Notes under the pieces: model-generated | The model's input: the letters and a program-made list of their open reading frames with translations, nothing else | Databases searched by the model: none | What the model was told of the DNA's origin: nothing | Part shown: in pieces, positions 25,675 to 57,380 of the stretch | Layout of the letters: every line of letters begins with the position of its first letter | How positions within the stretch are numbered: position 1 is the stretch's first letter | Assembly (NCBI GenBank): GCA_017654735.1 | Contig: JADPYG010000091.1 | Coordinates: forward strand, 62,001-126,000 | DNA length: 64,000 nt | Source: Vishniacozyma victoriae | Lineage: Eukaryota; Basidiomycota; Tremellomycetes; Tremellales; Bulleribasidiaceae | Direction: 5' to 3' | Program-made: the position numbers and the translations under genes

Positions 25675-26400
25675 ATGCCAACTTCACCCACCAAAACTGC
25701 CAACACGACTTTAGGCCGAGCTTCCAAACGAGTGTCGTCCGCGTTCAGAAGCGCTTTCGGACCCTACCGCCAGACCGATGAACAAACACAAGCTACACTT
25801 GACACCATGCGTGGGTGGCTTGAAGACGACAACGTGAATATGGAAGACCTCCTAGTGAGTCCTTCGAGCATGCTGCGTTAGATAGTTACTGGCTGACCAA
25901 CTCAGTATGGCATCCTCGGAGAAGGTGTCTATCGAGAGATCTTTCCACCGGCCGCGTATTGCGTTGAAGGCAGTGCGCCACTCTTTGCCCATTATCGAAA
26001 CGAGATCGGTGGGAACACCTTAGACTCGCTCCTGTATACGATTGATCCCACCCACAACAATAGCGTCACCGGTGATCCTAGCCCGTCTCGCTTGGAACTT
26101 TGGGACCGAGTGTCCCAGGCGAGGAACAGGCAGAGATCCTTGCTGCAGACTACTGGCGCCTCGATGATGTATAGTATGTCAAATGCTGGCAACAACTGTC
26201 CACCTCCATCCATCTTTGACAAACTCGACAGTGCGACCGATGCCAAGGTCAACCGTCAGATCGCTAGGAATCTGTCGAGGCTAATCGAACTCACAGTGGA
26301 GGAGCAGGATATCTGGCACGATGATGAGAAGGCACAGGAGAACGGGCCGGACAGGGCAACCGTGTTAGATTTAGCCTTCTCCTCCTGTGACAGGCTCTGA
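25675..26400 (+). CDS. Small-family protein A (W-x3-G exon-1 family)
   Basis: Two exons with a 51-nt phase-0 intron (25855-25905) encode about 224 residues. Exon 1 ends TMRGWLEDDNVNMEDLL and exon 2 begins YGILGEGVYREI. I do not recognise the family. It has no signal peptide or membrane segment; it is helix-rich, with an acidic C-terminal part (LIELTVEEQDIWHDDEKAQ). It is the first of five small genes in a row on this strand. All share a short exon 1 that ends at a phase-0 intron, usually just after a Trp- or Gly-containing helix. Confidence 0.65.
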
Positions 26401-26647
26401 TCCACCACATATATGTCATTGTTCTCCTTTGTGTCCTTGAATGCTAAACTATGACAATGTGCACTTGGCGACGACAGGCCAGTGGAGTAGACAGTGAATG
26501 GATGCCAGGCTCCACTCGACTTGATTCCGCCCTTTTCCGTCATTCTTCACATCGACGACGCTGACTATGTACACTCACTCGGATCTCACCACGATACCCC
26601 GTCCTTTTCTATCCTTGACTTTCCGTTAGATAACACCATACGCTACC

Positions 26648-27243
26648 ATGCTTTCCTCGATTGCCGGCTCTATTGCCAGTTTGCTCGGTCCGAGCGAAGG
26701 CGACAGGATACAAAGAACCCTCAGCGTTCTAGACGCAGCCCCGGAGGATGTTCCGACGGCCAAGCTGATGGTAAGTAAGAGCTACCTGCCCGATACGTGC
26801 TTGAGCATTGATGATAGATATCCATTGTAGACACTTTTGTCGCCCGCAAAGCACGTCGACCTCGCTCCGGACTGCCCGCTGACGTTGATTTACATTGTGT
26901 CACTCATGCCATACTTGGTGATATCACCCTGTAAGACCTCAAGGTCAGCTTGAATCCCGACAAGAACGAGAGATACACCGGCACGGCGAACTACGAGCGA
27001 AGGAGACTGTTCCAGATTCTCAAACAGAGAATAGATGATATCGAGCTTGCGGCTACAGTGGATATCGACCGAATGCAGTATCTCACAAACTCTCAAGGAT
27101 TGGCGCTTCCGAGAACGAGTTCGATCAGGGGTAGTCTTGATGATTTGACGCAGCCTGCGCAGACCGCGGAGCTAGCTCTTGTCCTAGAAAGCCTGGTATC
27201 TCGAACCACGACCGACATGAAGAGCTTCATGAACCACAGTTGA
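26648..27243 (+). pseudogene. Small-family protein B, interrupted by TAA
   Basis: Exon 1 ends VLDAAPEDVPTAKLM at a 47-nt intron (26771-26817). Joining to ISIVDTFVARKARRPRSGLP keeps the frame and resembles the second exon of neighbour D (M then SIIL). The frame then meets TAA at 26932-26934 after HAILGDITL, yet continues open for about 100 codons (DLKVSLNPDKNERYTGTANY onward) to TGA at 27243. The only GT/AG pair that would remove the stop is 18 nt apart, too short for splicing. I read this as a family member broken by a single nonsense change; a base error is the alternative. Confidence 0.45.
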
Positions 27244-27865
27244 TCCGAGATTCTTCGCCAGTAATCAGCTGTATATATTCGTCATGCGAACTGTAGCCAC
27301 CTCATGGAGATGTGTACAGTATATTGTTCCGGTGTTGTGTAGTGTGTTCGATACCCAATTGACATAAACCGTCCATCATTTGTCTCCTCAGTATGATCCG
27401 CTCGCCAGGACCCCTCGACAGCCGAATGCTTATCGGTCAGGGTCAGCTCTTAGCCTGAGCTGGCTACATTGGTTTATCCCTTTCGAGCACTAGCTATCCC
27501 CTGGCGACTCGCTGGCACTGGCTTAAAGGTTCATTTCTTGCACCCGCCCTACAGTATCAACCGCAAAACTTGGATGGGGTACAAGAAGGCGGGCATTCTC
27601 CCAACGAGGGCACCGTCATCTCCCGTACAATCACAAACAAGGACCTGTTGTACACAACGAGCCTGTTCGTAGGCTACAAGAAGGCTAGAGGGTTTGACTT
27701 GTAGCTTTTGAAGGAGTGGTCCGTCATTGGAGCCTATTCTCGATTCCTCCCTTTCATATTTCCAACTCGATGCAGAATGGCCTGGTCTCCTTGCGGTCTC
27801 GCAAAGCTAGATTAGATGATCAAAGCACATATAAATCGATCCCTCACGATTAAAACCCGCTAAAC
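27244..27865. other. Intergenic, promoter of small-family gene C
   Basis: No gene seen. A TATA box (TATAAAT, 27830-27836) lies 30 bp before the start of gene C. Confidence 0.5.
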
Positions 27866-28456
27866 ATGTCATTACCCACCCCAAGTCTCGACGCGAGGCC
27901 CAAGTGCCACCCATGCGGACTTCCGTCAGAAGTCGCAACCCTGACTTCTCTCCTTGCGCTTGACAAACGAGGCTCACTAAGGGAGAGCATCGTGAGTACT
28001 CGCTATCTTATCCTTTCCTTCTTTCTGGATTGACCTCTACAGCTCGATGCTGTGAGTCGACCCTACGAGCTATACCCTCAGCAATTCGAGCCATCTGAGC
28101 AAGGGGCCGACTCGAGACTATCGCATCACAGCCTCATCTCGGCTTTGATCACCGCCGTCCCTTGCCCTGAGACTGAACACCGATTCAACGCTCAGCAAAA
28201 GGTGGTCCAAAAAGATGACCACGTCAAAGCTTGGCATGAAGCGCTCAGACTCGCTTTGGACACTGAGAATGAGGATATGATACAAAATGCCGAGGACGAA
28301 CTCGATTTGGCGGTTGACGAATCTGCGAATGCGTGGACCGCCCTTGCGCGATGTACACTCGAGGACCTCAGGGCATGGCGTAACAAGCTAAAAAGGCTCG
28401 AAGATGGATTGAATAGGGGTGAGAACAGAGAGACAAAGGTGTCAATATGGAAGTGA
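27866..28456 (+). CDS. Small-family protein C (paralogue of D)
   Basis: Two exons with a 51-nt intron (27992-28042, phase 0) encode about 179 residues. Exon 1 ends SLLALDKRGSLRESI. Exon 2 contains CPETEHRFNAQQKVVQKD, EALRLALDTENEDMIQNAED and CTLEDLRAWRNKLKRLEDGL. The same elements occur in the same order and spacing in the gene at 29037 (CPETQRR, EAIKLAKEAGDS, TTLEDCEEWESQLEELE), so the two are paralogues. It is predicted to be an acidic helical, coiled-coil-prone cytosolic protein. Function unknown. Confidence 0.65.
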
Positions 28457-29036
28457 AGGAGCTCAAGCTCCCCGGTTGTTTCACTTACCAGTGGGAGCAG
28501 GTCGATGATCGCGCAGACTCCATAGGTCAATATTCCTCCGCCATGTAATTCTGTCAACTGCGGGTGCGCAATGTAGCTGGTCCATGACAAGTCGCAGCCT
28601 CACCACTACCCGGATATACAATAAGATGGGAGAGGAAAGATGGCGCTGTCAATTGAAGCGTGTCTGTGATGGTGTCTACTGAGACCAGTTCCTTGCTTCG
28701 CGACTTTACAATCAAAGCCAGCCTCACATAGCTGAGGTGATGAATGAATCAGCTAATGTCCTCCGGTGACCATTCAGGTGTACACAGTACGTCATGACCT
28801 AAGATCGAGCCTGTGTCATTCGGATATCGCGGTTGAGCCTATTTGGGACATTGACAGATGCTATAGAAGCCCGGTGGGGCAGACTTCCTAACCTAACCTA
28901 AATTCCCACCTCACTCCTTTGGATGGGGTTTCTTCCATCATCACCTGACCTTCAAATTTGAGCTACTTCATTCCTGATTGATTGCTGAGTATCGTATACT
29001 GCTTATCACACTCCTTAATACTGTCAAGGGGTCATA
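28457..29036. other. Intergenic, no gene seen
   Basis: This lies between the paralogues C and D. A run of CCTAACCTAACCTAA occurs near 28888-28902. No gene is visible. Confidence 0.45.
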
Positions 29037-29595
29037 ATGTCTACCGCTAGCCACTCCAGAACTGCTCAGACGAAGGGCGAGCGGGAGCTGGCAACTCTGA
29101 AGTCGCTCGAAATACTGACCAATGCAGGCTTGCTCCAGGATGGCATGGTAAGTAGCAGACCTGAATCGCAAAATGGCTAAATGTAAACAGTCGATCATAC
29201 TCAGGGCTCATCATTCACTCCAGGAAGAACCATCGAGACTCTCCGCCTACGTCGATAGCCTCAATATCTCTCACGACGATCTCAAGACAGCGCTTACCGC
29301 GTTTCATCCTTGTCCGGAAACACAACGACGATCCGATGCAGGACGAGAGGCGGTCGACCGAGACATCCAATTAACGGAATGCAATGAGGCCATTAAGTTG
29401 GCTAAAGAAGCAGGTGACTCTGTCGGGGAGGAGGTGTTAAGGAGAAACAGGAAAGTATTTCTCACGAGATCAGCGGTGTCGTGGACGAAGCTGGTAAGAA
29501 CTACTTTGGAAGATTGCGAAGAGTGGGAAAGCCAGCTGGAGGAACTGGAGGTGATGCAAAGTGGTAGTGATAGCGAAGACGGCAATGACTCATAG
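29037..29595 (+). CDS. Small-family protein D (paralogue of C)
   Basis: Two exons with a 43-nt phase-0 intron (29148-29190) encode about 171 residues. Exon 1 ends LEILTNAGLLQDGM; exon 2 begins SIILRAHHSLQEE. The conserved features shared with C are CPETQRRSDAGREAVDRD, EAIKLAKEAGDS and TTLEDCEEWESQLEEL. The C-terminus is a short acidic tail (SGSDSEDGNDS). It has no targeting signal. Function unknown. Confidence 0.65.
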
Positions 29596-30003
29596 ATCTG
29601 AGAGTCTACATATCCAAATGTATAAAGCAGGTTTATTGAACCTCATCAATGACTTGTCAGCGGCTCGTCAGTTATCCTCTACCCAATTTTAAGAGGATTC
29701 CGCGTACAAGGTCACGGATCCTGATTTAGCATGCTGTGCGCCTCCAGCTCTTTGTACAGCCAGGGGTGCACAGAATCCTAGGCTAGTGTGGATACACTCA
29801 AAGGACCGCCTTCCTCCGAAATCCATGTGAAAAGGTAGAAACACAGTTGAGAAGTCTTTTCGGCTTTTCCCACACCACCGGACTATTTACCATTGATTGC
29901 TCGGGCGGAAGGCTGTTTGTCCTCCACCAACGAGAGACATGTAGGTGTATAAGTAAAATGTCCATACATGATCGGTTTAACACCAATCACTCTCATATAC
30001 ACC
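29596..30003. other. Intergenic, promoter of small-family gene E
   Basis: No gene seen. TATAAG at 29948-29953 lies about 51 bp before the next start. Confidence 0.45.
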
Positions 30004-30648
30004 ATGCTCAAGAACGTTTCCAAGATCGCTTCCGAGCTCTCCAAAGCCGAGTCAATCCCGCATACCAGACAGGTCCTCAGGCAATGGAAAGACGCCGGTA
30101 CCCTCGGGTCTAATTTGGTGAGTCTTCTGCTTCAATGCAACTTAGACATCTGTTGGCAGCTGATATTCCAGAGCCGAACTCTACGAAATGAATTCGGAAA
30201 ACAACCAACCTCGCCCACACCCCACACAGATGTCCCTGCTCTTTCCGAGCTCAAGATCTTGGAGCCAAAGGCTGACGATACCGAACTATCACTCCAAGAT
30301 ATCAAAAGCTTCCTCGGCCCGGTATCAGTCTGGGACAAGCATTACAGCCAAGCTGCCCACACATGGATCCCTACCGAGAACACTTTTGGTGAGAATTACG
30401 AGAGGTCAGTCAAGAATCTTGATCCTATTCCACTCCAGAGCTTTTTGCGAAAGTTTGACAAGGGATGGATTGAGCGCCAATCACAAGCGAGTCAGGGGGG
30501 TCAGAAGTCGAGGTCAGGAGCAGCCACATCCAAGGAGCCGTCGCCGACTGACCAGGATTGGGATGTGTTGGCGGAACAGCTTGTGAGGCAAATCTCCACT
30601 AATCTCGACAATGAGGTGGAAGCATCAAAGATCTCGACTGTAGCCTAA
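30004..30648 (+). CDS. Small-family protein E
   Basis: Two exons with a 54-nt phase-0 intron (30118-30171) encode about 196 residues. Exon 1 ends LRQWKDAGTLGSNL, the clearest W-x3-G form of the shared motif. Exon 2 starts SRTLRNEFGK and has SLQDIKSFLGPVSVWDKHY, then LRKFDKGWIERQSQ and a C-terminal helix WDVLAEQLVRQISTNLDNE. I recognise no domain. It is the last of the five-gene array. Confidence 0.65.
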   Translation: MLKNVSKIASELSKAESIPHTRQVLRQWKDAGTLGSNLVSLLLQCNLDICWQLIFQSRTLRNEFGKQPTSPTPHTDVPALSELKILEPKADDTELSLQDIKSFLGPVSVWDKHYSQAAHTWIPTENTFGENYERSVKNLDPIPLQSFLRKFDKGWIERQSQASQGGQKSRSGAATSKEPSPTDQDWDVLAEQLVRQISTNLDNEVEASKISTVA

Positions 30649-30855
30649 TCTACTCATGAGATCTCCATTCCACCAATCGTTGTATACCGTTGGAGTCATG
30701 ACGGCGATAAGTTGGCGATGAATATATGCATCATTCGATTCACTTGATCTTACAATTTGTGCATCAAAGAACCTGTACCTGAATCAACACTACGCGACTG
30801 ACTTTGCGCTAAACAGTCTCGTCAACACATATAATCTATATATTCAATAAGTAGC

Positions 30856-33547
30856 ATGGCAGAAGTCCCTCCTACTCCACTTCTACCGACAAAGATGGGA
30901 GGCTGGGATCTGGAGAATGAATCTCTTTTGATCGATCAAGGACCGATATTCGGGGATGAATCAATGATGGAGATGACCTTTGAGATGAGTCGGATTGAGG
31001 ATACGCAAGAGGACCGAGATTACTGGAAGACGACGGAAGGAGGAGACGAGTCAACAGAGACCATCAGGATGTCTGAAATGGAAAGGAAGAGGGGGACATC
31101 AGTGGAAGACCAGGAGGATTGGGAAGTCGAGGTTGCGAGGGAGGCGGGAGGGAATCTGGATCGTTTGGAACGGACCCTCTTCGCTATTGAGGAGGACAAG
31201 GACGCTGCCTACCATACGATTGATCAGGATGATTACTACGGTGACTTTCCCCCATCGCCATTTCTCGATAGGTCTCTCCGGAAGTTGAGACGTACTGCAG
31301 AACCCGCTCAGTCGATCACGCTACCCGAGGCAGACGTACAATCACCACTTCGACCCAGTATCGATATCTCGTTCAATCAAGCCGATCTGCAATCTCCAGT
31401 GTTTTCGTCTTTGTCATTGGAAGCGATTGTTCCGGAGGATATCACCTTCACTGCTCGTGGAGACAAGCCGACGTTGGCAGAGGAGGAATGGAGTCTGTCC
31501 CTGGAGTCGATACGATCACGGGAAGTCAGCTTAATGGTGGATGGCAGAGAACATGAAGGGCACTTAGAAGGACAAGAGACTGGAAATGGGAATACTACTG
31601 CTAAGCGCTTGGCTAGCTCGCCACGCCACTCGCAAGAGAAGAAGAAACGTACGTCCTGAAATGTCTACATCATTCGTCCTAGGCTGACGATATAGCTAAA
31701 CACCGATCAACAAGCCAGGATGACTACTACTCCCGCCGGCTCTCGCGTTCAGCCTCTACGACCTCTACGTCTTTCACATCACCCGTCCTCAATAACGTCG
31801 ATCTACCCAGCTCAGTGCCTCTGGGCCGTTCCTCTTCGATCAGCCAAAACGCAGCGGCTGGCCCCTCGAGAAGAATCTTGGCACCGGAGTCTCATAGGGA
31901 AGGGGCAGCAAGTCCGCCTATACGTGGCTCGGTAAGTGTTTGCCTTTCATGTAATGATGGAGAAAACAGCTGACACGATAGATTCCGGCACTTACAAACC
32001 CCATAGGAGACGAGGAAGAAGACACACATCCCCCTCGACCTAGTTTACTCTCTCGATTAATCGCTCGATCCAGTGTCCTACATCCCGCCTTGACTACCTC
32101 GGACCGCAATTCACCCTCCGAAACGACTTCAGACGTCCCTTCGACACGTGACCTATCCTCTTCGGGTGATACATGTGCCTCGGGGTCTATATCTGCGGAA
32201 ATCCCTTCAATCGTCCATGAACCTGACGACGTTGAAGACGTCGAAACCGCTCGATCTCGACGTGTATCTGGCGCATCATCAGTACATCCAATATGGGATG
32301 GCTACGACGGCGAGCTAGAAGATCGATCAATCCAATTCCTCGATGGCAGCTTGCTAAGTCGCTCAACAGCACGCGGATCCATGGGTCCCGACGGCGAATC
32401 ATTGGACCTCTCCATGGGGAATATGTCGGCAGCAAGCGAAGTATCGGTCACTTCAAGACACTTGAGCTCTAGTTTACCCATGGATTCGCACTTGGATCAG
32501 TCGACTTATTCACATGTATCTCGCCATGTGAACCATTCTACGACAGATTCAGGACATAATTCACCTGTCTCCTCAGGCATATCTCATTCTCTGAAGAACT
32601 CTGGTCGCCTCCAGATTTCCCATCGCGGCGAAGCTATCCACAACGAGACTGCATTATCTTCAAAGGGCTCGCAGTCACCACATACAAGTACTACCATCAA
32701 GACTCATGATGGGAGCTCGTTACGCCGTTCAACTTCACAGCGGGTCATTGGATTCTTCTCGGATCTTCTCCGATCGTCTACTTCCAGCCGGTCGGGGTCG
32801 GATCAGATTCAGACACCTACTTGCAGTCTTTCTGCATCATCATCAAGAGAAGAGGAAATGGACGGGGACGAGCTATGCGTAGAGGACATGGAGGAGCAGG
32901 ACGATTTTGAGGAACAGGGATATGAGCAGGATGGAAGATCGAGTCGTAGGGATTTAGGCGAGAGTCGTGCACAGTAAGTTTTGAGCTCTAGATCGTCTGC
33001 TGTTGAATTACCGCTGATTGCCAGGTACTCGGCTGATCGCAACCATGGCACCTATATGCCCCCTCCTCCTCGATATATTCCCCTGACCCGACCGAACAAA
33101 GCCCCCGTCTCCCATACAGCCTCACGAGCCGCCAATCCCGTCCGTCGTCCCCGCCCTATCCCTTCGACAGCAAAATCAGCCGGCACCTCATCTTTCGCCT
33201 CTGCTGCCCTCGCTCGCCTTCCTCCACCCGGAAAGGGATGTTCTTCAGCAGGAGAGAGGACCGTGGTGAAACCTCTTGAGAGAGCTACGAATCTACAGGC
33301 TAGACGGGCACTATTTGAGAAGTCGAAAAACCAACCCGTATTTCCCGCCGTTCCAGGAAAGGAGACTCTCCAACGTCTGAACCCTGATAAAGGCATTTCA
33401 TATCGCCTTGAGGAGAAAAGGAGAATGAGGGAAGTCGAAGAGCGGAAAAAGAGGTTGGAAGAGGAGAGAGCGTATAGGGAGAAAAGGAAGGAGACTGTTG
33501 TCAAGGCCAGACCTGTTCCGGACATGTATCGCCGGAAGCTACATTGA
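30856..33547 (+). CDS. TPX2-like spindle/microtubule protein (tentative)
   Basis: Four exons (introns near 31650-31694, 31933-31981 and 32976-33024) encode about 848 residues. Most of it is disordered, acidic and Ser-rich. Near the C-terminus, LEEKRRMREVEERKKRLEEE is a charged helix followed by KARPVPDMYRRKL. This helix plus KAxPxPxxYR pattern is the signature of the TPX2 C-terminal family, proteins that bind microtubules and spindle kinases. N-terminal matches are not visible, so the assignment rests on about 60 residues. A TATA-like element (TATAAT, about 30830) precedes the start. Confidence 0.55.
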
Positions 33548-33915
33548 CCAGAAAATTGTCTTTGTCGCCACAAAAATATACCCACTTATTGCTTGTACCC
33601 ATTATGCAGCCTGCTGTCACTGCACAGACTCACACTTCGAGCATGACGCCGACTATGGTCGGTTGATGAACCCTCGTCGGGGGCTTAGCTAATGCTGGTC
33701 GGTCAAACAACGGGTGCCTAAGGAGGAGGAGGCAGTTCGTGAGGCGACATTAGCTCTCGGATTGGACGATACTCACAATATTACAATGAGATGCCAGAGA
33801 CACGATACATATAGCGGAACCCTAGATGTTCTTTTTACTTCTATACCTACAGAGCCTTCTCTTTTTCAATCGGTACCCCGAGACCCTGCTTGACTTGTCT
33901 TCCAGACACCCTTTC
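33548..33915. other. Convergent intergenic region, no gene seen
   Basis: This is the shared 3' region of the TPX2-like gene and the MFS permease on the opposite strand. Nothing else is recognisable. Confidence 0.45.
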
Positions 33916-37744: not shown

Positions 37745-40627
37745 TCATTGTTTCGAGTTCCACCGCCAAAGATCGAGACCATCCGATCCTGCTGATCCAT
37801 CTGGTCTCCGTTCGCCCATCTCATTCGCATTCAGCCCACCAAAGAAATCCCACGAAAAGTCACTTGCGTTCATGCCGGAGATCTCAGTTCCAAAGTCACC
37901 GGAAGGTCCCACTGTTTCAAGTCCGCTTGCGTCTATACCCGCTAATCCAGATTGTCTCCTGCTTTGCGCAGGAAAGTTTGGTTCGTAGCCGAAATTGAAC
38001 ATGTCTGTGAAAAGTGTTTCATCGAGTTGCTGATCCGCGCTGGAGGAATTTCCAGGAAGAAGGGAAGAACTCTGGGTATTGAGAAGTTGTTCTAGCGAGA
38101 ATGTCTGCGAGTCCGATACATCGTTGAGGATTGGTAACAATGACCATGAATTGGTAGCGGTGTCGGGACCGCATCGAGTGTTGACGGACGGCACATTGGT
38201 CTGATTGGTAAGAGATGCATCCTGCGCTGAGAATAGACCATTTATTGGCGAGCTTGAGGAGCCAGCGACCATCACCCGGGAGAACCCTTCGACACCAGAG
38301 GCATTCGGTCCTGGAAATCCATCTTCCAAGCCTGAGGTCCAATTCGATATGAGAGCGCTCATGTTCCCGTGATTATTGGCGGTGATCTGATTCAAGTCAT
38401 CGATAGTGGACTCATAGCCTCTTCTTGGCGAAGGCGGTCTACTCGGGTCGTCGGCTGGGCCAATACCAACGATATCTGCAAATTGAATTGAAACATTGAT
38501 GAGGATGCGATAAGTAGGGGCAAGGCGACTTTGCTTGGCCAAATTTAATGCAGTAGAAACCAGGCCTCGATCCGAGACGTGCCTTGGATTACCAGAGTCG
38601 ACCAATAATGGCAGAGAGAGCATCAGGCAGGCGTGATGTATATAATAGTAGTCGTACCACAACTCGCCTTCGAGTAAGCCGTGATTGGCAAGATCGGCCA
38701 GCACAGTCAGGCATTGCCTCGCCCCGATCAGCGAGGTCTGAGCAAGCGTGTTTATCGCAATCGGTAAAGTATTGGCAGAATCAGGAAGCGGAGTCGACTG
38801 GTGATCCAGCTCGTGGTCGACAGAGCATAGTAGATATGGCCGGCCAAGGACTGAGCGCAAATGATTATACGTGGCATGAAGTAGGTGTACCGAACGCCGA
38901 TGTCTGGACGTAGCGAATGGAGCAAAAGATTGCAGATGTAGAGGCAAAGATTGCTCCCATCTCAACAAAACTTGATCTAGCTGATTCGCCATATCGGTCG
39001 TTTCGGCCAGACGGGTCGGAGACGCAAAGTGCGTCGAATTCGATGCGATAAAGCGCTTAATCTGAGCAGATATATCCCCAAGTTTGACAGCATATTGTAG
39101 ATAACCATGTGGTGTATCGCCTCCATTTGAAAAGTCTTCGTCTGGATAACGAGCACTGACGTCGATAGTGGACGTGGCGCTCGGTCTTCCTAGAATAAAG
39201 CTCAGGCTTTGTTCGAAGAGATTGAGACTCCACCAAGTCGTCCGACGCGTATTACGAGTAATGTAGTCAAAGTTGGCCGTCTCTCCGTCGCGTTGTATCC
39301 CAAGGGCAATCGCCATTCGTGAGGCATGTCCCAAAAGCATCCAAGCGGTATTTCGTTCACCGGCGTTATGCTGATATAATCCAAGTAGAGCCAGAGCGTG
39401 GACATTGGCGAGTGTTGCCGTGAGTACCACTCGCTGCAGACCTTCGCGGACGACTATCGTGAGGTAGCGTCTTTGTATCGCTGCAGCCTCTGTGAGATTG
39501 TCGCGTTCCAGAGATTGGGCGCCGAGGACAAAGACCATGTACAGCACACATGTCCATCCTGATTCCGGCATCCCCGATGCGGCGACGGATTGTGTGGGTG
39601 ACCACAGATATTCGTACTGGACCCGAAAGGTGTTTCGGTCAAAAAGCTGAAAGTTTAGATGCACTCGATCAAAGAAGCTATCCACGAGTCGATCAGCGAG
39701 TCGTCGAGGCGGAAGAAGATCGTTATGCTCGATCGCCGATGTAGATCCCAGTACACTTCTAGGTGTAGTGCGGTCTTGTGGAGAAGGATTGGTATCCGTC
39801 TCGGAACGACAGGTCACGTTGAATGCATCCCTGATAGACGGACTCGATTCCTCAAGCTCCGCAGCCATGACTGGATGACCGGGTATTCTTGCCTCTAGAG
39901 CTGTGGTTCGCGCTGCCGAAGTGAATTCGTGAGCTCTTTGCTGGCGTCTATAACCGGGACGGTCGAGTGGAGGGGTATGGGTACTGAATTTTTTTACTAG
40001 GTACCGAATAGTATTTGCGAATTGATAAGAGCTGGCTGGCCCTACGTAGTGATAACCCCCACGGGGCGCTGGTATTAATGCTCCTTCTGGTATATGTAGC
40101 CTGTGTACCGCAGCGAATAGATTGCCGTCCTCTAATGATAATGTGCCCGTTTGCGATCCTGACGTAGAGCTTTCCGCCTCGTAAACTGGTAAATTTGCTC
40201 CTGCTCCTTCTATCTCGAATCCTGACATGTCCAATCCATGACCTCTCGCAAGACTCCGTATTCCTTCAATCGAGTCGACGTTTTCGTCGGGATACAACTT
40301 CTTTATCAGAGTGTCAAGTAGTCGATACCGGAGTTGTAATTGATCGTAGCTAGCGTAGACTCGCTGTTTGCGGGGTAGTGTTGCTTCGCAAGCTAGTGAT
40401 AGCTGAGCACAGGCGGCACAAGCATCTCCATTTCCAGGAATCCGGATACACCGGATTTTACGTGTTTTGCAGCGGTCACATGACACCGAAACGCGTTGAC
40501 GGTGGGCGTCGGATACTCGACGTTTGCCTTTCTTCGAGGGAGGCGGCTGCATACTTGGCGATGCAGATGATGGTCGGGCGTGGGAAATCATGTGGAGTAT
40601 GAAGATTGGACATGACGGACTGACCAA
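37745..40627 (-). CDS. Zn2Cys6 fungal transcription factor, intronless
   Basis: A single uninterrupted frame of 960 codons. The binuclear zinc cluster at about residues 50-80 has spacing C-x2-C-x6-C-x9-C-x2-C-x6-C (CDRCKTRKIRC then CAACAQLSLAC). A basic stretch (KKGKRRVSDAHRQR) precedes it. A middle-homology (fungal_trans) region at about 305-640 has RLADRLVDSFFDRVHLNFQL and LLGHASRMAIALGIQRDGE. The C-terminal 250 residues are low complexity. ATGs at residues 1, 13 and 26 are all possible starts; the later ones remove a hydrophobic stretch. It lies next to the aldolase/permease pair and may regulate it, which is inferred from position only. Confidence 0.85.
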   Translation of the reverse strand: MVSPSCPIFILHMISHARPSSASPSMQPPPSKKGKRRVSDAHRQRVSVSCDRCKTRKIRCIRIPGNGDACAACAQLSLACEATLPRKQRVYASYDQLQLRYRLLDTLIKKLYPDENVDSIEGIRSLARGHGLDMSGFEIEGAGANLPVYEAESSTSGSQTGTLSLEDGNLFAAVHRLHIPEGALIPAPRGGYHYVGPASSYQFANTIRYLVKKFSTHTPPLDRPGYRRQQRAHEFTSAARTTALEARIPGHPVMAAELEESSPSIRDAFNVTCRSETDTNPSPQDRTTPRSVLGSTSAIEHNDLLPPRRLADRLVDSFFDRVHLNFQLFDRNTFRVQYEYLWSPTQSVAASGMPESGWTCVLYMVFVLGAQSLERDNLTEAAAIQRRYLTIVVREGLQRVVLTATLANVHALALLGLYQHNAGERNTAWMLLGHASRMAIALGIQRDGETANFDYITRNTRRTTWWSLNLFEQSLSFILGRPSATSTIDVSARYPDEDFSNGGDTPHGYLQYAVKLGDISAQIKRFIASNSTHFASPTRLAETTDMANQLDQVLLRWEQSLPLHLQSFAPFATSRHRRSVHLLHATYNHLRSVLGRPYLLCSVDHELDHQSTPLPDSANTLPIAINTLAQTSLIGARQCLTVLADLANHGLLEGELWYDYYYIHHACLMLSLPLLVDSGNPRHVSDRGLVSTALNLAKQSRLAPTYRILINVSIQFADIVGIGPADDPSRPPSPRRGYESTIDDLNQITANNHGNMSALISNWTSGLEDGFPGPNASGVEGFSRVMVAGSSSSPINGLFSAQDASLTNQTNVPSVNTRCGPDTATNSWSLLPILNDVSDSQTFSLEQLLNTQSSSLLPGNSSSADQQLDETLFTDMFNFGYEPNFPAQSRRQSGLAGIDASGLETVGPSGDFGTEISGMNASDFSWDFFGGLNANEMGERRPDGSAGSDGLDLWRWNSKQ

Positions 40628-41373
40628 GTTAAATCACCCAAGTTACTGGAGATCACGGATACCTGCTTCCGTCTCGGAACAGTTTCGGCAAATCTTCTGG
40701 ACCTGCGGGGCTCAACGCCGCCGTAGTGGCCCATCAGGGAGCTGATAGCTGGGACACCATGATGCCTCTGGTTCTGTTTCTGGTCGCGCAATGAAAGCCG
40801 AAGCAGTTGGTAGTTCTGCTGCAAGCGATGGGGCGTAAGCGGCGCAGCAGTCTCGCTAGATTTGTCATAATGCGACGAACTCAGTAACGGGTCGAAGGCT
40901 CCTTCTTCTCTTTCGCGATCTTCAAGATGGTACCGCTTCGTGATTATAGGAGGGATTAGGCAGTAATCCATAAACTACTGACGTCGACGGCCGTGCGTAA
41001 CGTCTCCGTTCTCCAGCAATTGGAGACTACTGGCGGAAGCAGTTGTTCATCCCTGAATCATGCTTGCATAGGCGGAGTGGTGTATCTGCTCGGTAAACAG
41101 AATGTAAGCAATGACGCCAAGCTATCTTCAGGATCTGTTTGGGTTATAGTATAACTTAACCTTAAGTTACCCAATGCGCCAATCCGTTGTCGAAGTTTGT
41201 CGGCAAAGTCCCCCTATCTCGCCTGAGGATGTGTTGGGCTGAGCGTCCGGCTGGAGTTCACCAATCCAGGGTAATTGCCGAATTCTGACACCTCGGCATG
41301 AGTTCACACCATGGCAGGGCTGAGTTCCATATCGTCTCTCGTCGTTGTTGACTACGTCTACGACGCTGAAGAC
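40628..41373. promoter_or_regulatory. Divergent promoter with an 18-nt palindrome
   Basis: It separates the Zn2Cys6 gene (-) from the secreted protein gene (+). TAACTTAACCTTAAGTTA at 41152-41169 is an 8-nt-arm inverted repeat around a 2-nt centre. No gene is visible. Confidence 0.5.
41152..41169. promoter_or_regulatory. 18-nt palindrome
   Basis: TAACTTAA-CC-TTAAGTTA. It lies about 205 bp before the secreted-protein start; GGGT and ACCC flank it, extending a weaker inverted repeat. Confidence 0.5.
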
Positions 41374-45910: not shown

Positions 45911-46082
45911 TTTCCTTTTGGCTCGTGGTATTTGATGAGATGTCGATACATCTGTAACTGTAATGAGCATTGTCAGTAGAACCATTAAGAGGCAGAAACG
46001 ACGGTCACAACCGCATTGAAGGCACGCCTGCGGCTGCCATGACTCTAATCCAGTATGTCATACATGCATCATCCCCCGACGC

Positions 46083-47131: not shown

Positions 47132-47549
47132 TGTGACGATTCCTGTTACTGTTAGCTTATGTATAAAGTATAGATGTATAAGGTATATTACTTACTTGAC
47201 CTTTTGTTAGTGGAATAGACTAGGGATGCACTCAAACAGACACGCAGAGACCTGACCATACAGCTCCGCCGGAGAAATCAAATGCAAGAGGGAATTACCG
47301 GGGTGCGATAGATGTGGCAGAGTTCATCCCGCATGTTTTGGTCGGCTTTGCTCTTATCGCCGACAATATCGCTGCCCTGGCTCTGGCGGTTTGATGTGCC
47401 TGAGGCGGCTATCTCCGATGCATCTCGGCGCGGATCAACCCTCAATTAGAACAAAGGAGATTGGGACAAAGGAGTCCAATATGTGGATATCAAGTTGAAG
47501 CATAGCATTCAACAAGGTTGTACATGATCTCTGCATCACACACCGTACC
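47132..47549. promoter_or_regulatory. Divergent promoter of RPL11 and the TPR gene
   Basis: No gene seen. A CTCCGCCGGAG palindrome occurs near 47265-47275. No snoRNA or other RNA could be supported. Confidence 0.45.
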
Positions 47550-49277: not shown

Positions 49278-49812
49278 TGAACGCGATGATAACGATAACG
49301 ACCGAGTGTATTTTCATGAACGACTTGATCTACTACCTTCTCCGGGCGGACGAGACGGCAGGCGGGCGCGAGCGGATTTTGACCGAATTCTGATCCTTTC
49401 ATTATTGACTCCCAGACCTAACCTTTCAGTTGAAGAAGGCGAGTGGTGTATCAAGGACGACCTTTCACGCTTCACGGACATGAGGCAAAGGAGAGCATCC
49501 TTCTTTTCCTTTGAGATGTTCTGGGCCTCGGTCCAGGCTCACGAAGGATCGAAAAAGGACCGGCGTGTCGTATTTGACCATTCCATTCATAATTACCTTC
49601 CTCTTTGTCGGGGGGTTTCAAGCCAAGGACCCAGCCGTTCCCTTTGTCCAAGATGAGACTCTTGCTACTTTGAGTAACCACTGATGTCTCAAAGGATATC
49701 TAGGAGCTTACAAATCCGCCTTCCGACTGAGAAGTATAAGACAGTAGACAGTACAGTATACGCTGATTGATTGTCTGTATTAATCACATATTTATTCCCC
49801 AACTTGCCAATC
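49278..49812. other. Intergenic, no gene seen
   Basis: The frame at 49306-49656 has no family resemblance. I see nothing else. Confidence 0.45.
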
Positions 49813-50679
49813 ATGTCCCCAAACCCATCAGAAACGCCAGTCAGGCCTGAGCTACCTCCTCCTGAAGACTTGATCGCGGGATCGGTGCGGTGGCAGTCTA
49901 TCTGCGACAAGTCGTGCGAACAGTCTGATGGGAAGTGCACAGGCAGACTGAATTCCGTCGCGGCCGGTCAGCATGGTCAGTTGAGAGACCCTCAGACCAG
50001 TCTTGGAGAATATGTAAGTCGTTTGAATGGGAGGCGGGCGGGCTCATGATCGCTGCTGGCTGGAGGCTTGGTGGATGGTGCAGTCGTTGACCGACAGAGC
50101 AGAATCTTTATGCCAGTCGTCAGAGTCGCTGAGTCGATATATCTCGGCGGGCCCGTTTCGGAGTACAATCAAGACAACGCCGGCAAGTCCATCGATCAAT
50201 TGGTGCTCTCCCTTCATCACAACGAGTCCTACTTGAATACTCTTGAGGAAGGGGAGAGATCCGTAGGGTTGACGAAATGGAACGATAAGTTGGTGCAGGG
50301 CTACACGAAGCTGTACAGTGAAGCCACATGTCACGCCACCGAGGCAAAGCGCAACTGGAAGTATGTGGAATCGCTGAGAACAGAAGCCCAGTTGGCTTTG
50401 TCGAAAGGCAGTCACAGCGAGGCTGCTGAGATTGAGAAAAGGGCGGATGTACGTGTTGTGGACATGGAGAAGGAGGCAAAGGACTTTATGGACCGTCATC
50501 TCTTCTCTCTTATGGAGCATTGCAAGACGCTTCACAGTGTATACCGAAAGAAAACCCCCAAAGGTCCTGAACCTCGTGATTGGAACACCTCGCAAGCAGG
50601 CCAAGAACTAAAAAAGGCCAGGCGAGCAGCCAGGCATGCACAATCGCAGCCATCTTCGAAGAACGATGAGACGGTCTGA
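49813..50679 (+). CDS. Small-family protein F (probable member)
   Basis: Exon 1 starts MSPNPSETPVRPELPPPED, like gene H (MSPNPVATT), and ends LRDPQTSLGEY. A phase-0 intron at 50014-50097 ends CGACAG; joining to SRIFMPVVRVAESIYLGG gives one frame of about 260 residues. The helical middle (EAQLALSKGSHSEAAEIEKR) lines up in spacing with C and D (EAIKLAKEAGDS and following). It is charged, coiled-coil-prone and has no signal peptide. It lacks the Trp of the exon-1 motif, so membership is probable rather than sure. Confidence 0.55.
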
Positions 50680-51685
50680 CCGTTCAGGGCTCAGAAGCGG
50701 TGTGGGGACACGCAGGTCTGTCAACTACTGGGAGGACAGGGGGGTGATTTCAGTACTTCGTCAATAGGATAGCTAGACTATAGCTATTGACAAGGTGACA
50801 CAGGTACATATCAGGAAGGATATATTACGGAGGCTGGGCTTCCACTGTGACTATTGGACAGGATTGTGTATATTTTGGGTGGTGTTTGTAGTCGATGAAA
50901 ATCTCTGTTCAGCGTTGATAATACATGAAGATGAGCTCAGACCCCTGCGTGCCCTAGTAGCTCTGGGTCCTAGTGTATGAGTCTCGAATTCAAGTCAGTG
51001 CTTGGTAGCTATCAAGCTACTAACGTCTCAGCCGAGATTCCGCTGGCTCGCAATCCGCTGAAGTCAAGAGGGAATCCGAATCCTTGGTCAACCCTCCCTG
51101 GTGCACTTCACTACGCTTACTAACCTTTCATACAATTGTAAGTACAACGACATTAGCAAGCTACTGCAAATACTCAACTACGCATCTCGGATTCCCTTCC
51201 AATTGAAAGATCGGTAGATAGTATTGTGTGATTCCCAATCGTGAATCTCGCAGTCGGATATCACAGGCTGGGAGAAGAGGTCTGCTAACTTACCATCATC
51301 CCTTGTACAAAATGACCGAGGTCATATAAGGAGATGACGAGCTTGACACGCTGACAAGAGACTTCCGTTGATGGGTCTCCCAGCTAAGCCGCCCGGGGAG
51401 GAAGAGAGAAGGAGTGATATCCTTTGACCAGACTATGTCGTAGTCATCAAGGGAATGCAGAGGTAATACTGGCCGCAGCAAGGCCCAGGTCTTCATCCTT
51501 AGTCATTCAAGCGGAGCTGAACCTTGAAACGAGGTCCGGCATCCATCCCTTCATAAGCCGCCCGCTTGATTACAAACCCGCTCAGGCCTCGACCAAATAT
51601 ACATATGGACATAGGTGCAGGAATAGTTCCCTCTGCACGACCCATTTCTGCCCCCTTGACCACTATCTAGACATATCATCAACAA
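50680..51685. other. 1 kb intergenic region, no gene seen
   Basis: No frame of interest beyond short chance frames. Nothing recognisable. Confidence 0.45.
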
Positions 51686-52802
51686 ATGGACGACAGTCGT
51701 CTTTCACGGGATGGTGATCTACCCCCTCCCACTGGGTTACGACGAAGCTCAAATGTGAAGCGGTTCCGCCGACTTTTGTCTCCCGGCCAGGCCCTGCCTA
51801 ATTCGTCAACATATGGAGCGGATCCACCTGGCTCATCACAAGGCGAAGCCCCACTACATCCCTCTCTGTTCATGGACGATTCTTTCTCTGCTTCACCTAT
51901 CAGCAAAAGCCCCGTGTGTCACATCACTGGTACTCCCGAATCCCCCACATTCCTCACTCAGATTGTGGGCATCCCAAATCTCCACGAACTCAGGCAATTG
52001 GAAAGGGCAGTCTGTGGAATAGATTTCGAGCCTTTCACCGAAGACGGCAAGCACTGCGTCACCCGCAAGGCGCGAACATTTCTCTATCAGTGGACAGCTG
52101 ATCCAATAGAGTCTAGGGTGAGTTCTGTTCACCTCAAGTATCTGCTTTGGCAATATACTACACCTTTGTCGATTTTATCACTGACGGTTGTTCAGAAAAG
52201 CCTGCATGATGCTTTTCTCAAAGCCGGAACTGAGCTTCATAATGCCCGATGCTTGAGCCAGGATGCGCAAGACTCTATCAATCCCTTTCTGCACAGTATA
52301 CTAATCCCGTACCATGGCGCAAAACACAGAACGACCTGTGATCCCAGCAGTAAATCCGCAGTTGAAGAATTCAAGACAAGATACACAGAATACACAAATC
52401 ACCTCAGGAAACCAGGTGAACGGGGAGCCAGGGGTCTTCAATGGACTCAAGTCCACAAAAAGAACACTGAGACTTTATGCGATAGTATTGGTGGCATGAT
52501 CAAATGTCTGACCCCCTCTGATGCAGTCACCAACCCAGACACCCAGTCAATCCAGCTACCTCCTCAATCATTCTACAATCACAGCATGTTGGCGCCACCA
52601 GACACCGTGACCGGGTTTGATAAAACAAATGCAGGTATGTAGTAGATCATTTGAGATCGTCGCCGACGGATCATTGACTCATTCAGCCGGTTCTCAAGAC
52701 TCCGACAGCTACGAGATCTCTCCAATTGAACAGCCCTGGACGCCTGTACATGGACGTTTGTCCCCACCATCCCCTCAATCAGATCACACTACTGAAGAGT
52801 AA
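51686..52802 (+). CDS. Small-family protein G (long N-terminus)
   Basis: Three exons with introns at 52118-52195 and about 52635-52687 encode about 328 residues. The first exon is longer than in its relatives, with a Pro/Ser-rich, disordered front. It still ends with the motif, FLYQWTADPIESR, at a phase-0 intron. Exon 2 starts KSLHDAFLKAGTELHNARC and has SINPFLHSILIPYHGAKHR, in register with the SxxxLxxxL stretch of C, D and F. The last exon is short and Pro/Ser-rich. Unknown function. Confidence 0.6.
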
Positions 52803-53240
52803 TTACTTGTTCCCGACACGTGTATGGTGATATGGTCTCATGTTGCTTTCTCTGATGTATAAATCTTTTGTGCTGATGGGTGTTGTATGACACAGATATA
52901 AGAGTACCCTAGATCAGACAATTGATTTGAGCGCCACCTCAATGGTGGCAAGAAACATCGCTTTTGCCACCCCTGTCCGGTAATGTCTGCAGACTGAGTG
53001 ACCACACACTTCATGCCAATTTCCACTCACTGCCGAGTGCGAGAACATTCTCTATACACCGCAAGGGTGCTTGAGAGGGCAACAATTTGGTTTGTATGAG
53101 CGGCTGTTGTGACTCAGGTACAATAAAGAACGCCAGACCATCCAAATTTTAATTTCGTGGCCATCTGAATAGATGTGCTCCCGTATAATCAATCCCCTTC
53201 GTCAAGTTTCATATACTACACTACCAATCTGCATACAACA
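52803..53240. other. Convergent intergenic region, no gene seen
   Basis: This is the 3' region of genes G (+) and H (-). No gene is visible. Confidence 0.45.
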
Positions 53241-53909
53241 TCACTCAGTCGTCCCATAACCTCTTGACTGACTGAACGCCTCAGCTTCCGCTTGATCGAT
53301 CGCATCAATCCTGGTGTTGGCCGCTCTGACCGCTTGATCTCTGAGATTCCTCACTTTGAACCAATCCAGAGGCAAAAGCGATTTGTCATGCGGCACATAT
53401 CCTCTAGCCGCATAACCATGGGAGCCAGACCGGGCTGTCTCGTGAAGCCAGATCTTAGTGTCGATCCCATTGAGGCTTTGCTTCAGTGTCCCCGGATCAA
53501 CCGAGTGGTCGAGGACTTTGAGGATTCTTGCAATTGGGGCTGTTGTGGGTACAGACGGCTGGGGCCTGTAGTTTAAATTTGTCTCCAAATCTCGATTCAT
53601 CTTATCCTTGAAATGCTGATAGAGAGCGGCGTCCTGCGATCAGCTCATGGAGTATTATCGACTTGAGTCCACCTTGGCCGACCTTGCAACCAGACGTACA
53701 ATTGTTGCTTCGAGGTGGGATACCCCATGACGAGACCATTCTGTGAGCTCCTTCGCCACTGTGATATCATCAGGCCTCTTGATGAGTTTACCAAACAAGC
53801 GAGACAACCTGGACTGAGGTATGCCTTCGGCATACTCTTGTGACAGCAGAGGTGTGGTATCATTGTTGGATTGCGAAGCGTTGGTGGTGGCTACAGGATT
53901 TGGAGACAT
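53241..53909 (-). CDS. Small-family protein H
   Basis: Two exons with a 66-nt phase-0 intron (53634-53699) give about 200 residues. Exon 1 starts MSPNPVATTNASQSNND, has TTPLLSQEYAEG, and ends LTEWSRHGVSHLEATI. Exon 2 begins DAALYQHFKDKMNRD and includes ILKVLDHSVDPGTLKQSL and WFKVRNLRDQAVRAANTR. The frame is open upstream to 54383, but a TATA box at 53968-53975 lies about 60 bp before 53909 and the relatives have short N-termini, so 53909 is chosen. Unknown function. Confidence 0.62.
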
Positions 53910-54390
53910 GGTTGGCAGGCGTGAAACGGTTGGCGAGTCGATGCTTAGACCTGTGGAACTGACCTTGTTATATAAGTAATGGTGTTGTGACACAGAAGAC
54001 CGGCGAGTCCTCACTGGCTGGACCACTGCGCCTCTGGTTGCGGTCATCACGAAAGGAGGCTGACCGCGGCTCTCATCATATGCTACTGTTTCGGGCCTTG
54101 TGAGCAAATGACGCTCATTATAACTAACAATCGGTACGGGTGGCATCCTCAGCGGTCTTGCTATATTGCAAATTGCCTCAGAATCAGTACTGATGCCTCT
54201 CGTTAGAGAGCAGCCGGTTGAGTGCACAGGCACAACCCAAAGGTACTGACGCTTGTACACCTTACATTCTTGTAGGTCATCAAAGGATCGACTAAAAACT
54301 CGGCAGTAGGGAGGGACGTACCGACTATAATCTACACAGCTCCCCTTACAATGTGCCTTGTCATTGTACATTTGACCTCCCACTGTACCT
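53910..54390. promoter_or_regulatory. Divergent promoter of small-family genes H and I
   Basis: TTATATAA at 53968-53975 serves as a TATA box for H. The minus-strand frame here is open but looks non-coding (Tyr, Arg and Cys rich). No other feature is seen. Confidence 0.5.
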
Positions 54391-54648
54391 TCTATATCAT
54401 GTCCGAATCGCAGATGTCCCTACTGCTTCCCAAGGACACGACTTCGTTGCCAACCAAAAGAGGTTTGTCTTTCAGACGCCCTGGCTCTGTCTGTAGTGAG
54501 CTCCTGCGCCAAGCGGTTGGAAGGCACAAAACCACCGACGCATTGACCGAGATCTTTCAATGGCAACATGATGGACAAACACATGACCAGATTGTATGTA
54601 GGCTGGTTATGTCTGCTGGCCTCATATGCTGACGTGACACCAAAGTGA
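54391..54648 (+). pseudogene. Small-family member I, truncated
   Basis: Exon 1 encodes about 68 residues and ends IFQWQHDGQTHDQI, a good W-x3-G motif, at a 52-nt intron (54594-54645). The first codon after the acceptor is TGA (54646-54648), so the product ends there. Starting one base later, exon 2 would read DLIEAVWMLQASQ, like the D-initial second exons of H and J. A 1-nt gain at the junction would explain this. It is either a decayed member or a genuinely short protein. Confidence 0.4.
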
Positions 54649-54871
54649 CCTTATCGAAGCCGTGTGGATGCTTCAAGCATCGCAAGTAATGGTCATCGAA
54701 TCGTCCCCGTGATTGCTTGGAGATGTGCAGCAGGGCGAGGGCAGCTTGTTGCTTCGTGAGGATTCCAGCTCACGTTATCTCGTGCCTCGCCAAGACTTGC
54801 TGATCGCTTGACGTCACCGATCTCGATCAGAGTTGGACATTTCATACTGGTACCCGTTGTCATAATACATT

Positions 54872-55906
54872 ATGTCTGCAGCTACCATCGTAATCACAGG
54901 AGCCGTAAGAGAAGTCCAGCTACCAGTGATGATCGGCGACTGACAACAATAACAGAATCGAGGGGTCGGTCTCGGTATCGTCAACCTGATTTCCAAACAG
55001 CCAACGGCCTATACGGTTTACATCACCTCTCGATCCGGATCTGATCTGCCCAATCCCGCCTGCAAAAGCACCTTCCTACCCAGGAAGCTGGATATCTCCG
55101 ATCCTGCTTCAGTCGAGACCTTGGCGGCAGAAGTGAAGAAGGCACATCCCGATGGGATCGACGCGATCATCAATAACGCTGGAGTGAACTTGAACCCTGA
55201 GGGATACAGCCAAGAGACCATCCAGAACACATTGAAGATCAATTACTACGGCACAAAAGCGGTGAGTACATGGACCGAGAAGGAGCTGATAAGTTCAGAT
55301 GTGCGATCACTTCATCCCACTCGTCAAGAAAGGTGGCAGGGTGGTCAACGTCGCCAGTGTCGCTGGACACCTGAACGGATACTCGGCGGACGCGAAGAAG
55401 AGGATCCAAGAGGCTGCTTCTTCGACTTCGGCTGTGAAGGATCTCGTGACTGAATACGAGGTACGTTATCGACAGATTCCGCTTGATGCTTATCTGCAGT
55501 CTCTCGTTGGAAATAACCAGGAAGCCGACGCTGGTTTCAAGAAGGACGCGTACTGCGTCAGCAAGGCCTTTGTGGTTGCTTTGACCAAGGGATTAGCCGC
55601 TGAGAACTCTGGCCTTCAGATCAATTGGTGAGTCTGATTTGGGCGGGCAGGCAGACGGGTAACTGACATGTAGTTGCTGCCCAGGATGGGTTGATACCGA
55701 TATGGGACTACAGATGGGCAAGCCACCCAAATCTCTAGGTAAGCTGATACGGGCACGTTATGATGGATCGGCTGACATCACTACCAGAGGATGGAGGTCG
55801 GATCCCCCTCAGACTCGCAATTGGTGACATCGGGAAGTCGTCGGGAGAGTTCTGGGAGAATCAGAGTATCTCCAGCGCCGCCGATGGAAAGGTCAGCGTG
55901 TGGTAG
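54872..55906 (+). CDS. Short-chain dehydrogenase/reductase (carbonyl-reductase-like)
   Basis: About 275 residues in several exons. The start exon ends ITGA and splices to NRGVGLGIVNLISKQ, giving the TGxxxGxG cofactor motif. INNAGVNLNPEGYS is the NNAG motif. VVNVASVAGHLNGYS carries the catalytic Ser, DAYCVSKAFVVALTKGLA the YxxxK pair, and CCCPGWVDTDMGLQMGKPP the PG motif. It is NADPH-dependent by family and reduces carbonyl compounds; the substrate is unknown. It sits between small-family genes I and J on the same strand. Confidence 0.85.
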
Positions 55907-56800
55907 CGTTTGAATTCGCCATTGTTGTACCTTGGACATCGACAGCTATGAGTCTGTAATGCGAACGATCTACCGTTATCAATGTATCGATGCTCGTCCT
56001 GTTGCTTATTCACCGATTGAGATACATCTTGTCCATATTTCCGATGAAGCTGATTGGTAAAGAGGCAATCGCCATACAATGAGCTCGGTTGTTACGGACC
56101 GGAATGCTGATCGACTATACCCACTCAGAGTATCGCTGGGATCCCCATTCAAAGCTTCATACTGGCTGCGGACCATGACCAATCGACACCGCGAGTGAAG
56201 AAGGATTGAGAGAGCTAAAGAAAAAACACGATGCTCCATGAACGGCCAAGTGTGAGTGGTTCTTGAGTTCTGGGATAACCAATCTCAGAACAAGCAAGTC
56301 CACGGATGAGCCGGAGAACGAGAAAGTTGGCGACAGCTTTGTGAGTGACATCACCGGCGAAGAAGTAAGGTGCATTGAGAATAGACATGCCCCGCGAGAG
56401 CACCTATACCAACTCGGAAGTCATCCTGAGCATGATAGTGATCTAGACAATTTCTGCGTGGTAAACTAAGACAGCGGGGTGTATGTTCATGCAACTTTCC
56501 AAATCCCTCTTTCTAGCCTGTTGATATCGATGGTATAGGCTTACCACGGTAGTCTAGTCTATTCTTTCTGGCTGCTGCGGCCGATGAGGCTCGCGTCGTT
56601 CGGTGCCTTTGATCCCCCTCCCTTGCTTAACAGGGTCGAAGTAGAAGGCTCCCGCAAACTGGCCTCGGCGTTGCTCCTTTGACACTCATGCATATCTGAA
56701 AGGAAGCCGAGCAGTGATGGCAATGTGACATCGTTCTTGAAGACGTTCAAGCCTAATCATATCACCTACCTCCTGCTTCCAGGAGAACAGCGAATTTATC
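55907..56800. other. 0.9 kb intergenic region, no gene seen
   Basis: Short frames at 56263-56469 (+) and 56559-56750 (-) have no family match and no supporting introns. Promoter elements of gene J may lie here, but none is clear. Confidence 0.45.
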
Positions 56801-57380
56801 ATGTTCCCCTCTCAAGCCCCGTCCAGCACTGCGACTCCTACCGACAGTACGCCACTCTTGACCCGATACAAATCCATCCGTGGGATTACAGACCGCCGCT
56901 CTTTCTTAACTCGCATGACATCTCGTCAGCCGAATGCCTCTGAGATCTTTCTGGTCATGAGAGAATGGAGAGACGAAGCGGGTGGAGATTCTGTCCTCTC
57001 ACATGTCGTAAGCATACCCGGTCGCCCGTATTCATCGCTAATCGAGCCAGGACAGAGCTGCATCTAGATATCTCGATGGTAAAAACACCACCACGGCATG
57101 GGGTACGCCAAGTCCAAAGGACATCGAGCCTTCAATCACCAGAATGATTGAAGTTCTGAGGCATAACGGCAAAGACGAGGATGGAACCGAAGGACTGGAG
57201 CCAAGATTGATTCGACTAAGGGAAGCGATGTGTTACCACAAGCTGAACGCCAGAGACCTCTCCACCAGTCCCGACTACATGAAGAAGAAAACGAGGTTGG
57301 TGAATGATATCAGCAGTGCGATTGAAGGTTGGGTCGATGAGCATCGAGCCAGTGTCTTTGAAGATGACGAAGGAGCATGA
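56801..57380 (+). CDS. Small-family protein J
   Basis: Two exons with a 43-nt phase-0 intron (57008-57050) encode about 178 residues. Exon 1 has STPLLTRYKSIRG, like TTPLLSQEYAEG of H, and ends MREWRDEAGGDSVLSHV. Exon 2 begins DRAASRYLDGKN and contains SITRMIEVLRHNGKDEDG, RLIRLREAMCYHKLNARD and a C-terminal helix ISSAIEGWVDEHRAS. H and J are the most alike members of this cluster. Unknown function. Confidence 0.62.

Follow-up and report, generated by a model that had tools for sequence, protein, structure and literature searches.

The window analysed here is a stretch of 64,000 nucleotides (nt) from Vishniacozyma victoriae (bases 62001-126000 of C14, a contig of 538,138 bases, in a genome of 11.58 Mb and 17 contigs), in which ten small genes, A to J, lie in two clusters. 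The original prediction described them as an unrecognised gene family in which a shared exon-1 motif is followed at once by a phase-0 intron. Exon 1 was found in all ten genes, each closing in phase 0 at a GT donor, and the start codons lie where that prediction had placed them, except in I, which begins at 54399 and not at 54391. The remainder of the layout is less uniform: an open exon 2 behind an intron of 43-84 nt is present in eight of the ten (A, C-H and J), exon 2 of B carrying a stop and I offering none that is convincing. By eye, an ungapped block T-L-x-x-L-x-x-W/h-x-x-x-G (h, hydrophobic) could be placed in exon 1 of every gene, 16-23 codons before the exon end. An 11-residue block, [ST][LI]xxhhxxhx[PH], could be placed in exon 2 of all nine genes that have one, 26-39 residues past the junction, opening with D in D and with P in H. 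The tryptophan (Trp) is present in six of the ten genes, as had been described, and the SxxxLxxxL stretch noted earlier in exon 2 of four members has a similar counterpart, this 11-residue block, in all nine.

Numbered from the first base of the window and read on the plus strand unless noted, the first cluster opens with A, in which exon 1 (25675-25854; block TLDTMRGWLEDDN within the last 20 codons) is separated by an intron of 51 nt from exon 2 (25906-26400; block TLDSLLYTIDP). B follows with exon 1 at 26648-26770 (block TLSVLDAAPEDVP, without the Trp), an intron of 47 nt and exon 2 at 26818-27243; C has exons at 27866-27991 (block TLTSLLALDKRGS) and 28043-28456 around 51 nt, and D at 29037-29147 (block TLKSLEILTNAGL) and 29191-29595 around 43 nt. 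E consists of exon 1 at 30004-30117 (block TRQVLRQWKDAGT), a 54-nt intron at 30118-30171 and exon 2 at 30172-30648 (block SLQDIKSFLGP). In the second cluster, F comprises exon 1 at 49813-50013, with the weakest of the exon-1 blocks, and exon 2 at 50098-50679 (block SIDQLVLSLHH) behind an intron of 84 nt, while G has three exons, at 51686-52117 (block ARTFLYQWTADPI), 52196-52634 (block SINPFLHSILI) and 52687-52802, divided by a first intron of 78 nt (52118-52195) and a second of 52 nt. H lies on the minus strand, with exon 1 at 53700-53909 (block VAKELTEWSRHGV), an intron of 66 nt and exon 2 at 53241-53633 (block PIARILKVLDH); I is represented by exon 1 only (54399-54593; block ALTEIFQWQHDGQ); and J joins exon 1 (56801-57007; block IFLVMREWRDEAG) across 43 nt to exon 2 (57051-57380; block SITRMIEVLRH).

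In seven of nine genes the reading frame demands removal of the intron: those of A, C, F and H hold in-frame stops and those of B, D and J are not a multiple of three in length, so a single two-exon protein is obtained only once the intron is taken out. The introns of E and G are in frame and stop-free, hence compatible with either splicing or reading through. A shared phase-0 intron behind the exon-1 block is thus predicted from the DNA, with I showing its donor only. Two members are damaged. B has an in-frame TAA in exon 2 at a place where none of nine relatives has a stop, so B could have become a pseudogene recently, or the stop could differ between strains; a model in which a second intron skipped the stop was rejected once the relatives revealed the true frame. 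For I, no acceptor within 130 nt gave a second exon longer than about 33 residues, and the gene looks like a remnant. It has a good Trp block and donor and adjoins a short-chain dehydrogenase gene.

Relatives were sought at E-values up to 10 in a collection of 5.8 billion proteins drawn from public genomic and metagenomic data, with C as one query (10 proteins) and two mixed alignments of four exon 2s as the others (28 and 21 proteins). The resulting 59 relatives, 59-99% identical over the aligned part, cover all nine genes searched (I was not among the queries), and since relatives were found for each, we regard A-H and J as genes. Each relative can be assigned clearly to a single one of the nine as its best partner (A 9, B 9, C 10, D 9, E 9, F 1, G 2, H 9 and J 1), B having entered this assignment as the second-intron model. 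The relatives lie on short contigs (569-18,063 bases as tabulated), a hint of metagenome origin, and would come from related fungi. Most of them have their start within exon 2 or slightly upstream of it, the pattern that a gene caller blind to introns would give. Four more distant relatives of E, in which the 3' end of the intron differs, lose similarity just upstream of the acceptor, supporting a real intron there. The acceptor of D was set at 29190 because relatives match from 29191 onward; the six codons before it vary except for a MAE..Q frame, which would be the branch site and acceptor. From the conservation of the proteins we infer that the members are under purifying selection.

In a leave-one-out scan the by-eye place of the exon-1 block was recovered in nine genes, with F one residue off. 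Scored alone against 199 decoys, this block was reached by one decoy each for E and I, four for D, five each for A and G and nine for C, and by 35, 46, 56 and 114 for H, B, J and F, respectively; among the high-scoring decoys, one probably represents H read in an alternative frame. When both blocks were scored together under position limits, again leaving one gene out, with I omitted and exon 2 of B taken from the relative P0055, eight of nine genes beat all 187 decoys and J was reached by six, with a shuffle p of at most 0.045 in all nine. The scan picked a shifted block in exon 2 for D and G and in exon 1 for F. A free block search over all nine genes gave a sum reached by none of 120 decoy sets (exon 1 by one, exon 2 by none), although it was aided by the known pairs A/B and C/D and its register differs from the by-eye one. 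With only one of each known pair retained, none of the 150 decoy sets came up to the family sum in any of four reduced subsets, while the exon-1 block alone was reached by 0, 2, 1 and 0 and the exon-2 block alone by 8, 2, 8 and 5. In the first of these subsets the search aligned the Trp of A, E, G, H and J and placed C and F elsewhere. Across 256 kb of the contig, the Trp pattern occurs at 11 places, namely A, E, G, H, J and six others; a scan of the same sequence with the family blocks scored eight of the ten genes at 33.6-42.3, these eight having trained the model, with an other-frame place in H at 16.2 and the best remaining place at 11.2. I and B are not among the matches, B because its stop cuts exon 2. 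We conclude that a common origin is reasonably likely and that most of the evidence for it comes from the exon-1 block together with the intron.

Comparing profiles in all 45 pairs identified C-D (E 9.5e-17, 150 columns) and A-B (E 9.8e-5, 106 columns) as clear paralog pairs. Lower scores were obtained for B-H (E 0.015, 28 columns, exon 2 against exon 1 and so not collinear), A-C (E 0.023, 47 columns in the C-terminal helix), H-I (E 0.023, 35 columns) and H-J (E 0.06, 94 collinear columns). Merging the profiles into AB, CD, HJI, E, G and F left 15 pairs, of which nine surpass both reversed controls locally. Six merged pairs were also compared with 60 block shuffles and 60 reversed-rotated controls, and all six had local scores above every reversed-rotated control. 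The local score of AB-CD, 22.4, was reached by none of either set, and its global alignment (4-186 against 1-159) by one of 60 shuffles and none of the reversed-rotated controls, indicating good support for AB-CD kinship. The HJI-E alignment is collinear from the exon-1 block onward, and G-F was reached locally by one of 60 shuffles and globally by none of the 60 in either set. Taken together, homology above controls is clear for A-B and C-D and exceeds nearly all controls for AB-CD, while the other subgroup pairs are mixed.

The strongest alternative to a single family holds that the locus contains two clear pairs, A/B and C/D, perhaps joined, beside unrelated lineage-specific genes that look alike through their size, helices and short exon 1. 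Several points weigh on its side or against a single family. The exon-1 block alone fails the leave-one-out test for B, F, H and J (p 0.28-0.51), the blocks were chosen by eye ahead of the jackknife, and the 187 decoys partly overlap. The free search abandons the by-eye exon-2 register in several members (A, C and F, for example), and the internal control is mixed, the exon-2 block being reached by 5/60 other windows of the same exons in one subset and by 0/60 in a second. Profile scores between most of the other subgroups are likewise weak or non-collinear: six of the 15 merged pairs (AB-F, CD-G, CD-F, HJI-G, HJI-F and E-G) fail the reversed controls locally; block shuffles reach the local scores of CD-E (24/60), AB-E (17/60), HJI-E (4/60) and AB-HJI (3/60), all four of which fail the global test; and the G-F match is not collinear, the start of G lying opposite the C-terminal part of F. 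Unrelated genes would, however, have to account for the eight of nine members that exceed every decoy in the position-limited test, for reduced subsets in which no decoy set reached the family sum, and for an intron whose place and phase are common to the members. We consider it doubtful, if possible, that the genes outside the two pairs are unrelated, and reasonably likely that all subgroups form one family. Of the single family first proposed, the A-B and C-D ties thus stand as clear and AB-CD as good, whereas the kinship of E-H and J with the rest, which depends on the exon-1 block hxxhxxWxxxG, on the intron that follows and on the exon-2 block, would be moderate.

The original prediction further attributed divergence, clustering and broken members to fast birth and death, as in recognition, conflict or host-adaptation families. 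The damage in B and I fits some decay. The contig opens (1-110) with degenerate telomere-like TAACCCCC units, which place the clusters about 88-119 kb, and the window 62-126 kb, from a likely chromosome end; a telomeric motif TAAC(4,5) is given for Cryptococcus and Kwoniella in PMC11185503. The relatives nevertheless lend rapid turnover no support, being one-to-one for all nine genes. Six sets of relatives share an equal longest-contig size, read here as the same contig from size rather than from the contig sequences themselves, and each holds only window neighbours: A-B-C, B-C-D-E, C-D (twice), D-E and G-H. Paralogs are about 18-36% identical, far more diverged than the one-to-one relatives, so the duplications look old. 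The array looks to predate the split of these species and to have been stable since, which speaks against fast birth and death; such searches cannot reveal genes that other species have and this window lacks.

The many further copies in this genome that the original prediction named as support for a family did not appear either. Ten protein searches found no further member, although very distant copies would escape them; copies as close as C and D would probably have been detected. C found D and D found C (36% identity), the relative of B found A at E 0.7, and the remaining queries matched only themselves. G's relative has one weak match on another contig, C12 (E 0.53), which was taken as chance; it is antisense to a frame that by eye resembles a helicase. 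Lineage-specific tandem gene families of fungi are clustered, lack known domains and contain strongly diverged paralogs. A-J resemble them in all three respects but differ in having one-to-one relatives, kept neighbours and apparently old rather than recent copies, as well as no signal-peptide-like start by hydropathy. We therefore regard a fast-evolving recognition, conflict or host-adaptation family as unlikely; this is probably a real, conserved family and not a fast-changing one.

The open introns of E and G permit both spliced and unspliced proteins, and an old family intron could have become a regulated protein-coding insert (exitron), making the position behind the exon-1 helix a switch in some members. 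In the relative P0049, the intron 1 reading of G is identical at 22 of 26 residues, compared with 105 of 144 in exon 1 and 117 of 148 in exon 2, a conservation no lower than that of the exons, as translation would give. P0049 is, however, a single relative found through its open frame, so the evidence is slight, and a count of 22 is reached by 93 of 293 windows of that size. For E, two close relatives keep the intron reading at 15 and 16 of 18 residues, less well than either exon 1 (38 and 36 of 38) or exon 2 (141/154 and 147/156). We hold a switch of this kind to be improbable. If it were true, an unspliced protein would carry the retained intron as a moderately hydrophobic insert, placed between the Trp helix and the hairpin described below, and its partner or membrane binding would change.

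Consistent with the earlier statement that the genes carry no known domain, no Pfam family reached its cut-off for the nine spliced proteins. Hydropathy showed nothing like a membrane span, or like the signal peptide expected of a secreted effector family, in any of the ten (maximum 19-residue mean 0.08-1.12), no dedicated predictor having been used; in both analyses B was run as the wrong model with the second intron. Below the curated cut-offs, exon 2 of C is weakly similar to two Pfam families of unknown function, DUF7260 (E 0.0008; 19.3 against 27 bits) and DUF1090 (E 0.0061; 17 against 24.4 bits), as is full-length C (18.5 and 16.1 bits against the same cut-offs). The best values among the relatives are 0.00028 and 0.00013, respectively, for which E-values only are listed. 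At E up to 0.1, five of 20 C/D sequences match DUF7260, eight DUF1090 and seven BDI_1685-like_C (best E 0.00055); neither DUF is listed for the other eight spliced proteins. Profile searches against the sequences of solved structures gave no convincing match, the best being E 0.0078 over 48 residues of a repressor for C/D and 0.72 for A/B.

The AlphaFold model of C/D (mean predicted local distance difference test, pLDDT, 75.1; 55 of 137 residues at 90 or above) has helices at 28-38, 45-74 and 77-128, forming a short helix, a Pro turn (VPCPET in exon 2 of C) and then a long helical hairpin. The model of A/B has helices at 38-45, 59-92 and 113-147 in the same order, at low confidence, together with low-confidence helices at 3-11, 19-33 and 51-54. 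The comparison of predicted structures proposed across members, covering A-D, suggests a similar helix order; the poor A/B model (mean pLDDT 55.8) and the confinement of the models to A-D weigh against the reading of one family. The first eight Foldseek Protein Data Bank rows for the C/D model are Vipp1/PspA chains, members of a group (PspA/Vipp1/ESCRT-III) with a similar long antiparallel helical hairpin, yet no significant score was obtained and the arrangement is common, and we think it very improbable that these proteins are membrane-remodelling hairpins of that type. That the open reading frames have no function is scarcely credible: in codon usage the exons stand out little from non-coding DNA (z 0.2-4.7 over 19 exons, too weak for calling short exons), but relatives with constrained residues already largely refute it.

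The reading we favour, at slightly less than even confidence, is that both clusters represent a single old tandem family of this fungal lineage, which encodes soluble proteins of helical-hairpin type and whose members are kept singly. Each gene would encode a small soluble protein in which exon 1 supplies a variable tail ending in a short amphipathic helix, hxxhxxWxxxG, and the phase-0 intron behind that helix would be inherited from the ancestor. Exon 2 would contribute a short helix, a turn containing Pro or His, and two long helices packing as an antiparallel hairpin, as predicted for C/D. Members would have diverged early by tandem duplication, A/B and C/D being the clearest pairs, and each would now be retained. 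Because the proteins are small, soluble by hydropathy, predicted to be helical, conserved and without a known domain, the simplest role to assign them is that of a module for binding or oligomerisation. We tentatively suggest that the hairpin is such a surface and that each member could act as an intracellular adaptor with its own partner, the exon-1 helix docking on the hairpin or on the partner. No described family fitting these genes turned up in the parts of the literature available to us.

H and J share a DxTPLL stretch near the N-terminus of exon 1, which resembles an acidic dileucine sorting signal. Around the clusters, a Pfam scan of 30 long frames of the window identified MFS, OPT, sugar and ABC transporters, GMC and other oxidoreductases, a short-chain dehydrogenase inside the second cluster and a Zn-cluster transcription factor at 37748-40633, and none of these frames suggests a partner for A-J. 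The region 7533-62663 is rich in transporters and oxidoreductases and also holds DHDPS and GFO/IDH/MocA. The window contained neither a tRNA nor an Rfam match at gathering score.

If the favoured reading is correct, these genes would constitute a protein family that no Pfam entry matches above its cut-off and that gene anatomy identifies better than sequence does. Alignment by intron position would then offer a practical route to joining orphan genes that sequence searches miss. Strongly diverged neighbours within a fungal gene cluster can, by this example, be old and stable rather than fast-evolving.

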